Shown: positions 12,201 through 15,200 of the stretch, piece after piece
How the letters are laid out: each line of letters starts with the position of its first letter
Position numbering within the stretch: the stretch's first letter is position 1
DNA from: Aldrovandia affinis
Taxonomy: Eukaryota > Chordata > Actinopteri > Notacanthiformes > Halosauridae
Assembly (NCBI GenBank): GCA_029706075.1
Contig: JAINUG010000014.1
Coordinates: forward strand, 3,108,501-3,172,500
Length of the DNA stretch: 64,000 nucleotides
Direction: 5' to 3'
Notes under the pieces: model-generated
Database searches by the model: none
Told to the model about the DNA's origin: nothing
The model's input: only the letters and a program-made list of their open reading frames with translations
Position numbers and translations under genes: made by a program

Positions 12201-15200
12201 CCATACTGCAGTCTGAGCTTAATGAGACCCGCCATCCTGTCCCAACGAGAGCCCGGGGGCATAGCCAGGGCCGGATCTCTGCATAGGCCGACAAAGCCTA
12301 GGCCTAGGGCCCAAATGTAGCATGGGGCCCGGAATTATGGGGAAAATATTCATATTGACATTATTTTTTAATATATGAATTTTTTATTTGTGGTTCTGTG
12401 TGGCTCAGTAGGTAGAGCACAGCGCTGGCAATGCTTAGGTTGTGGGTTCAATTCCCACTGGGACCGCATATACTGAAAAACAGAGGCGGGGCCTAGGGCC
12501 CATGATCATCAAGATTCAGCCCTGGGCGGAGCCAGCTACTCCCTGCACAGTGGAGCCTCCCCCATGCCAGGCTGGTGTCTGGTCTGCCCAGTGGTTTAAA
12601 ATGCTGTAAACTCCCCCCAGAGGGCCCAGAATTACTGTGCTCTTTAATTGTGGGGGGGGTCTCCCAATTTGGAATGTCCAGTTTGTAGGCCTCTTTCATA
12701 AACTGCAAGCACTCCGTCGAGTGTACCCTTCCCCCACCGAGGCGCAAGTTTGCCGGCCGCCACTTCTTTTCACTCCACAGTCCTCCAGCGCATTCGAATT
12801 GCACATTCGTTCTGTCGGAGAGGTGCACGTCACGATGCAGATGGACTGCAGGCACCTGATCAACTGACCCAACTGGGTTTCTTGCCAACTGAAACCCTCC
12901 CTCTCTGAATGGCACTATAGCCAAGTACAGTAACAAAAATAGGTTGCGCCTCTAATTGGAGATTAGAGACACAAACACAGGTCTAACAACACATTTTTTT
13001 CTTCAAAGAGTTGAAGCAGACGGCTGTCAGGTGACATGAAACCCCGAATCAGCAGCTCAGTCAAAGGCCATTCATCAGAAGCAGTAGGATAAGGCACCAG
13101 CCCTCAGCAGGTCTTGAACACAGGGATGTCAGAGAACAGAGAACCATAAAACTGCTAGGTGCAATGTCGATGCTGTAGCAGTCGACGCAGTGTTGATGTG
13201 GTAGTGGTAGACGCAGTGTTGGTCTGGCAATAGCAGACTCAGACCAACCTTGCCGTCGGATCCAGTGTTGATGTGGTAGTGGTAGACGCAGTGTTGGTCT
13301 GGCAATAGCAGACTCAGACCAACCTTGCCGTCGGATCCAGTGTTGATGTGGTAGTGGTAGACGCAGTGTTGGTCTGGCAATAGCAGACTCAGACCAACCT
13401 TGCCGTCAGATGCAGTGTTGATGCGGTAGTGGTAGACGCAGTGTTCTAACCTTGCCGTCAGACGCAGTGTTGATGCGGTAGTGGTACACGCGGCCTTCGT
13501 AGCGCAGTGAGATGGACCTCTGGCCGGGGCTGCTCTCGCTCTCGCGCACCAGAAAACTGCCGTTGATGCCGCTGCTGAGCAGGTACTCGGCCGCGTTGCG
13601 TGACACAGGCCCATGGTACCAGCTGTGCTTCTCCAGGCTGTTGACGGGGGTGATGTAGTTGCTGGGCACCCATCCCTGGCCATTCCTGGTCCGTGCCTCA
13701 CACCATTCGCCATTGTGGTTGTAGCCCAGAACTCTGAGCTTCTCTCCTGGGGAGGAAATGTACATCACAGTGCAGTGTTTGTATGCTATCGGTCCCCATT
13801 GTTCTAAAGAACTGAAACCCTCTCGCATTATTACTTATCTCAGTATTTACAAATATGAACCATTTATACATGAAAGTCTTTTTCTTTTTAGTGGAGCAAT
13901 TCAGATAAATTATCTTGTTATTGCATTTGAAAATGTAATATGTGTCTTCCAAAACTGATTTCTTTAATCCAAACCTTTGCTGTGACTGGAATAAACATCA
14001 CAACAAAGGGTCATTCCTCCCACAATGCACTGGAACAACAGAGATGAATCATGGAGGAAAAACAGGGTTCTTCCAGTTTTCAGTCACATTGTCGAATCTG
14101 CCATGAGCAGGATTTTTGAATCCTAGTCCCAGAGTACTACTGTGCATGCAGGGGTTTGTCTAATTATTATTATTTTTAAATCAACTGAGCTCTCTTTTTT
14201 GATTTGCATTCTGAATCTTGCATCAGACTATCTCTTTGAGCTAGCTGCTCCTTGAAAGAAGAAATGCTCAGCTGAATGTTTGTTAAAAGCAGCACAATCA
14301 CACTCTCAACAACATGTTTCAATCTTCAAGGACATGTGGCGGATAACTCTCAAGTGATGTCAGATACAGACCAAAGTGCAATTAGCAGTTCATTTGAACC
14401 AAATCGGTTGAGGAGTCAGTCGGAACAAAAGCCTGCAAACAGTGTGGTAACTCTAGCCTCAGGTTGGAAAACACTGGCCTGGCCTTGAATAAAGCCTCAC
14501 AGATAACCGCAGGGACCACCACCAATGTTCCGTCCTGATTGGCCCAAAGCTGATAGAAACTTGGTTTTGATCAGCAGTTGGCCAATCAGAACAGCTCTCA
14601 GCTGTGAGTACTGCCCATGAACAAAAGTGTGTGTCATTGAACAACCATGAGCCATCAAGGCAAGGTCGCTGAATTCTACAGCTCTAGATCTGACATTTTA
14701 CTTTGAACTGACATTGAATTGTGTCCCTTGCTTAAACAGTCTAACACAGACTTCTGAACTTCAGACTGGAAGATTCTCTTTTTTACCTTTAGTTATGCTG
14801 AGTGTGTTGTCCCCACTGGCCACAAAGTCATACAAGGCCACGAACACGTTGGGGTCATTCTCGCCAGGCCCGGTGAGCAGGTTCTCTTTGGAGTTCCAGC
14901 GCGCCGCCTCCGTCAGACCCTGGGGTTCGAACCCAGGCCTCTGAAGAGCCTCTATGAATAAAACAGGTGACAAACATTAGCAAGAATGTCAAAGAACAAC
15001 AGACGCAGGAAAAAAATGTTGACAGAGAAAAAAAAGATGAGAATACAGCGTGTCAAAAAATACAGAGATATCCATATATCTGACATCAAAACACCTTTAA
15101 GATTAAGATTTTCTAGCTGCCAGATAAACATATCAATTCCTTGGGTCAATGCGGTTAATTGTGTCAAGCTCATGGCAAAGCATCATGATTTTCCTCAAAT

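Follow-up and report, generated by a model that had tools for sequence, protein, structure and literature searches.

The window, the whole 64-kb stretch of DNA that was analysed, carries exons 3 and 4 of an abl1 gene on its minus strand, separated by an intron 3 of 2792 bp (10659-13450, minus strand). The exon 3 product is an open frame of 98 amino acids, which phmmer matches to ABL1 in PDB (2abl) at E 1.3e-63. The last bases of the exon are GACGGCAAG, followed by the donor GTTAGA.

13451-13746, minus strand: abl1 exon 3, 296 bp, covering the end of SH3 and the beginning of SH2, boundaries read in sequence, donor AAG/GTTAGA after 13451
13465-13490, minus strand: E1, the exon 26-mer that is the seed of unit 1, CGTGTACC...CACTG; copies A1-D1 have CGTCT and the paralog exons GTCT
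13439-13450, minus strand: short linker GTTAGAACACTG directly after the true donor, without a hairpin
13364-13438, minus strand: array unit A, 75 bp, decoy donor after 13399, holding the in-frame TGA at 13408-13406
13289-13363, minus strand: array unit B, 75 bp, decoy donor after 13324
13214-13288, minus strand: array unit C, 75 bp, identical to B, decoy donor after 13249
13188-13213, minus strand: partial unit D1, 26 bp, the same as the start of B and C, without a donor
13162-13187, minus strand: decayed copy D2, 26 bp, 20/26 to the 26-mer (blastn E 6.7e-5), the oldest-looking unit
10386-10658, minus strand: abl1 exon 4 (LYVSSDSRF...), 273 bp

Read in the sense direction, intron 3 starts with GTTAGAACACTG and continues through units A, B, C, D1 and D2: three full 75-bp units downstream repeat the last ~40 bases of the exon together with its donor, and two 26-bp pieces follow. 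Each 75-bp unit consists of ~40 bases of exon end and AAG/GTTGGT, with a linker of 35 bases counted from the GT. TRF describes the array with a period of 75, 3.4 copies, 98% matches and a score of 495, which places it among minisatellites (head-to-tail units of ~10-100 bp); it also repeats the donor of exon 3 itself, as a donor-spanning VNTR does. Units B and C are identical across 75 bp, and A is 96% identical to them. The first-pass annotation had described the exon 3 end and its donor as copied into an intronic minisatellite, with a true donor at 13451, donor-like boundaries at 13399, 13324 and 13249, and two identical 75-bp units. Its sequence, coordinates and counts hold, TRF and shuffles agree with it, and each of the four boundaries reads AAG/GT. 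To that account we add D1, D2, a 9-bp hairpin in each 75-bp unit, and the reason why the first donor step is 52 and not 75: the true donor is followed by a linker that lacks the hairpin and has 23 bases fewer.

Chance similarity between the exon end and the intron can be ruled out, as their alignment scores 38, and shuffling the exon end or the intron, 1000 times each, gave no score above 16. We searched the 1.22-Gb genome with the array, by a method that skips simple repeats and very common words. There was one 100% match, the array itself, and the others among the best candidates scored were its own exon end and the exon ends of two abl paralogs; we therefore reject a dispersed transposable element. 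A known RNA family over the array is likewise rejected, with all 5 Rfam matches lying elsewhere in the window, and a search for a plasmid match found none.

Other features of the window include a tRNA Rfam match within intron 3 (12401-12458, plus strand; 44.4 bits, model positions 8-63 of 71), possibly a tRNA-derived SINE, and three UnaL2 LINE 3' elements from Rfam (23016-23069 and 32855-32908, plus strand; 54863-54916, minus strand). An open frame of 356 residues at 49777-50844 (minus strand) is, by eye, what we take to be Tc1/mariner-type transposase-like, and open frames at 40581-41520 (plus strand) look reverse-transcriptase-like by eye and are presumably a LINE fragment.

The direction of copying can be read from one codon at the start of the copied stretch. 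The window exon now has GTG TAC there, and GTC TAC is found in the exons of both abl paralogs (C835 and C180) and in copies A1, B1, C1 and D1. Because paralog exons and copies agree, we conclude that the exon seeded the array and then changed, in line with the earlier claim that the exon end was the seed. The intronic copies A1-D1 thus descend from the exon and keep its earlier form, and the array is a record of how a coding exon once read. Measured from the GTC form of the 26-mer, changes number 0/26 in A1, 1/26 in each of B1, C1 and D1 (at a CpG site) and 6/26 in D2, so distal copies are more decayed than proximal ones. If the GTC state is taken from the paralogs, GCGTCT occurs twice in the exon, 26 bases apart, and the array junction reads CAACACTG-26-CAACACTG; a 26-bp step would fit slippage at this GCGTCT microhomology. 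Between units A and B, 3/40 exon-like sites and 0/35 linker sites differ, a comparison that gives no signal of selection in the array (Fisher p 0.24). The paralog introns fail to align at the linker site.

The identity of B and C suggests that the copy number of the array changed recently, presumably by duplication. The same identity could also point to an assembly artefact that inflates the copy number. Against this, there are sequence differences among A, B, D1 and D2, the genome search located the array at a single place, within a contig longer than 3 Mb, and comparable arrays exist at other exons; we hold an artefact to be very improbable.

The three decoys would add 52, 127 and 202 nt to exon 3, each one more than a multiple of three, as the first-pass annotation had calculated. 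Reading past the true donor gives 14 codons and then a TGA at 13408-13406, the 15th codon after the donor and the stop that the annotation had placed at 13406. All three decoys lie beyond it, so any decoy transcript would truncate the frame. Transcripts with premature stops are expected to go to nonsense-mediated decay, and those reaching this TGA should be destroyed in that way.

Each 75-bp unit also contains a perfect inverted repeat.

13368-13398, minus strand: unit A hairpin, GTTGGTCTG, 13-nt loop, CAGACCAAC; begins at decoy +1
13293-13323, minus strand: unit B hairpin, GTTGGTCTG, 13 bases, CAGACCAAC
13218-13248, minus strand: unit C hairpin, GTTGGTCTG, 13 bases, CAGACCAAC

The stem is 9 bp long and perfect (9/9) in all three units, and it starts exactly where the decoy intron starts; the true donor has no such hairpin. 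Among the 3609 GTs on the minus strand of the window, four begin a perfect 9-bp inverted repeat (GT start, loop of 3-20, non-simple arm), and three of the four are the abl1 decoys. In the genome the hairpin is found, among the best candidates scored, at 3 places with at most three mismatches, all within this array, against 0 for a reversed-pattern control; because it occurs at the abl1 array alone in this search, it does not resemble a dispersed element.

Folding predictions place the decoys and the true donor in different settings. Making positions -3 to +6 accessible, within flanks of 60 nt, is predicted to cost 6.1 kcal at the true donor and 12.3, 13.5 and 13.5 kcal at decoys A, B and C. 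With four span settings on a 648-nt stretch the order is kept, at 3.5-5.3 kcal for the true donor and 10.6-13.9 kcal for the decoys. Sequence alone does not separate them well, as the two scores, one from pairing with the U1 5' end and one from a donor weight matrix, disagree: decoys pair slightly better with U1 (-6.5, against -5.6 for the true donor), and the matrix, by which sequence alone may favour the true donor, scores it one bit higher (2.9 versus 1.9). Strong predicted occlusion is in itself not rare on the minus strand. Of its 209 AG/GT sites, 7 reach 12.5 kcal, two of them decoys B and C, and 20 reach 10 kcal, three of them the abl1 decoys; 10/600 randomly drawn GTs reach 12.5 kcal, and 2/174 GTs in the exon 3-intron 3 stretch are costlier to open than any decoy. 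Since B and C are recent copies, the association of hairpin and decoy rests on about two independent units.

We propose that a minisatellite arose over the boundary at which abl1 exon 3 ends, that its decoys are largely masked by hairpins and that it is near-neutral, and we consider this account probable. The first steps would have been replication slippage or template switching, and the hairpin could have arisen from a fold-back copy of the first nine bases of the intron. The array is tolerated since it leaves the exon and the first donor unaltered. The decoys would be kept largely out of splicing, each sitting at the base of a perfect hairpin, a structure absent at the true donor, and the predicted hairpin argues that they are mostly silent. 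Most likely, the array has almost no effect on the protein, and a small number of dead transcripts may leak through.

The birth of the minisatellite may also be taken without masking, with the hairpin an accident, the upstream donor winning by its proximity to the exon and its enhancers, and decay clearing decoy transcripts. The modest folding of the units relative to shuffles favours this account (z -1.5 for B, with 19/200 shuffles as good, and z -1.3 for A, with 18/200), and so do other arrays of the genome described below. Weighing against it, the decoys pair with U1 no more weakly than the true donor, and the hairpin begins exactly at decoy +1 in three of three units. We rate this as a real possibility, but an unlikely one.

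Donor-spanning minisatellites are already known. The VNTR in intron 18 of human ABCA7 is described as including the donor of its exon, with a 25-bp unit whose first two bases are the GT and with 12 to about 427 copies; splicing at the first decoy, one unit further on, is reported there and causes a frameshift (PMC5954066). This use of a decoy weighs against masking. The abl1 array likewise lies at the very start of its intron and repeats the exon's donor. It differs from the ABCA7 VNTR as described there in its 75-bp unit, in the ~40 bp of coding sequence before the GT, in decoys that lie in predicted hairpins and in its 3.4 copies by TRF, counted in one assembly (PMC5954066). An exon-seeded array with decoys in hairpins was found nowhere among the open-literature matches listed, a scope that leaves subscription papers mostly outside.

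Given the reported use of the ABCA7 decoy (PMC5954066), the abl1 decoys could similarly form a functional poison-donor array that reduces the output of abl1 in a particular tissue or condition. That all three give the same frame shift and lie past the same stop would suit such a role. It sits poorly with decoys that are predicted to be occluded and with units A and B, whose differences carry no selection signal, and we regard it as improbable.

Introns are known to be gained by tandem duplication of AGGT-containing segments, and the examples cited include fission-yeast cases in which a 24-bp unit is present several times (PMC4974935; PMC3443670). The abl1 array resembles this route in that exon sequence with AGGT has been copied and extra splice signals have resulted (PMC4974935, PMC3443670). 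It differs in that an existing donor has been multiplied within an existing intron, and no new intron is inferred (PMC4974935). Intron gain at abl1 is rejected on anatomy: all copies lie inside the ordinary exon 3-exon 4 intron, which is present in both paralogs. The new donors of another report (PMC6692358) are, as described there, placed in the exon. A further fish gene, MSTN-2 of Sparus aurata, has one or two copies of a variable ~150-bp block at the 5' end of intron 1, as the abl1 array has its block at the 5' end of its intron, and the description of that repeat, in the accessible text of the source, mentions no exon-derived sequence and no copied donor (PMC3045353).

The hairpins have precedents of their own. 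Template switching can make a perfect stem in one event by copying the reverse complement (PMC8794818), and the arms in the three abl1 units are perfect reverse complements over 9/9 bp. Hairpins from template switches have been proposed for RNA genes (PMC8794818); for the abl1 hairpin the same origin is a proposal. At MAPT exon 10, a hairpin interferes with recognition of the 5' splice site (PMC11802352). That hairpin regulates a real donor, whereas those of abl1 cover copies of one (PMC11802352). How the spliceosome chooses among near-identical donors is a long-standing question, and abl1 supplies a natural series of matched donors, distinguished by where they lie and by a hairpin that can be removed.

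The exon 3 products of the two paralogs are 97% (C835, the abl1 co-paralog) and 92% (C180, abl2-like) identical to that of the window in amino acids, and because third positions are 70% identical between the window and C835 exons, these two genes are probably old duplicates. The C835 exon ends in D-S-K, and the window and abl2-like exons in D-G-K. C835 carries a minisatellite of its own directly after its exon 3 donor, with units of 43 and 36 bp. Compared with its own exon end this array scores 16, a value matched in 1/1000, 2/1000 and 2/2000 shuffles and reached, as at least 16, in 28/2450 cross pairs (abl pairs included). The window unit aligns to the C835 array without gaps over 34 and 37 bases, with scores of 20 and 21 (0/3000 shuffles each); exon ends alone score 11-16. 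The two arrays have in common a block with CAACACT and, 26 bases on, CA(A/G)CAC, which is not in the three exons compared. As far as sequence goes, common ancestry, gene conversion between paralogs and parallel slippage at the same place would all fit. The abl2-like paralog has no exon-derived array after its exon 3 (score 7, with 779/1000 and 952/1000 shuffles as good); its intron 3 starts with CCT and CTCTGTCTCCCTCCATC repeats directly after the donor, which are not exon-derived.

We also surveyed kinase exons of the genome, taking 86 of the 154 reported PF07714 matches (132 of 1435 candidates scored), 30 as loci and 56 in regions; 13 of the 86 contain in-frame stops. The last 50 bases plus 10 were compared with the next 650, at a threshold score of at least 20. 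This was reached on the donor side in 5/86, against 0.44% of 7224 cross pairs, and on the acceptor side in 1/86 (C1972). A separate version with donor calling started from 53 of the 86 and retained 46, with C1236:495371 outside it and C1824:190673 not among its best 15. Two donor-side matches were dropped, one as a microsatellite (C680) and one as a single, gapped, non-tandem match ~540 nt away (C1900).

Tandem copies of exon end and donor are present in 2/86, and a donor-only repeating array in 1/86 more. The exon at C1236:495371-495646 (minus strand), which we take by eye to be Eph-like, has its end and donor repeated three more times, with decoys at +91, +196 and +293 and a frame that stays open through the extension; the exon-only test scores 38 (0/1000 shuffles). 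At C1823:5590327-5590530 (plus strand), one tandem 36-bp copy of exon end and donor places a decoy at +36 (exon-only score 14, 1/1000), and its use would add 12 residues, since 36 bp is a multiple of three and the frame is open. The intron that follows C1824:190673-190876 (minus strand), a Src-like exon by eye, holds a 22-bp minisatellite with 22 further AG/GTGAG donors over ~500 nt. With an exon-only score of 8 (490/1000 shuffles as good), this array is not taken as exon-derived; it repeats the donor and intron start, as in ABCA7.

These arrays bear on the masking of the abl1 decoys. The repeated donors of C1824 are predicted to open at 3.1-7.3 kcal, with 0/22 occluded, and the C1236 decoys at 10.2, 8.4 and 5.6 kcal. 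That the C1824 array persists with 22 strong, unoccluded donors, and the C1236 array with such decoys, is what favours a minisatellite birth without masking, and on these predictions hairpins would not be needed for tolerance in general. With donor repeats in three other kinase introns of the 86, tolerance of donor copying could become measurable genome-wide.

Given the 34-37-nt block shared by the window and C835 and the copies at other kinase exons, we tentatively raise a broader account, in which the abl1 exon 3 end is a nursery of minisatellites. The array or its 26-bp junction would predate the split of the co-paralogs, or have arisen twice at the same microhomology, and have been renewed since; it would belong to a class of donor-copying arrays that is common in this fish, with decoys silenced by position, by decay or, at abl1, by hairpins. 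We consider this doubtful as a whole. The asymmetry between donors and acceptors, three versus none among the 86, is not significant (one-sided p 0.12), and TRF coverage around the 86 matches (period 10-200, bins to 1000 bases) lies at 5.1-6.8% on the downstream side and at 4.0-6.3% on the upstream side, with no clear general concentration of tandem repeats at donors. Most simply, minisatellites would arise at many places in this repeat-rich genome, and the ones that straddle a donor would persist because the copy in the exon remains the first. The acceptor-side match, C1972:182827-183015 (minus strand), is an intronic minisatellite (TTTGGGCTCACCTGTG-like) at the end of the intron that reaches the acceptor of the kinase exon.
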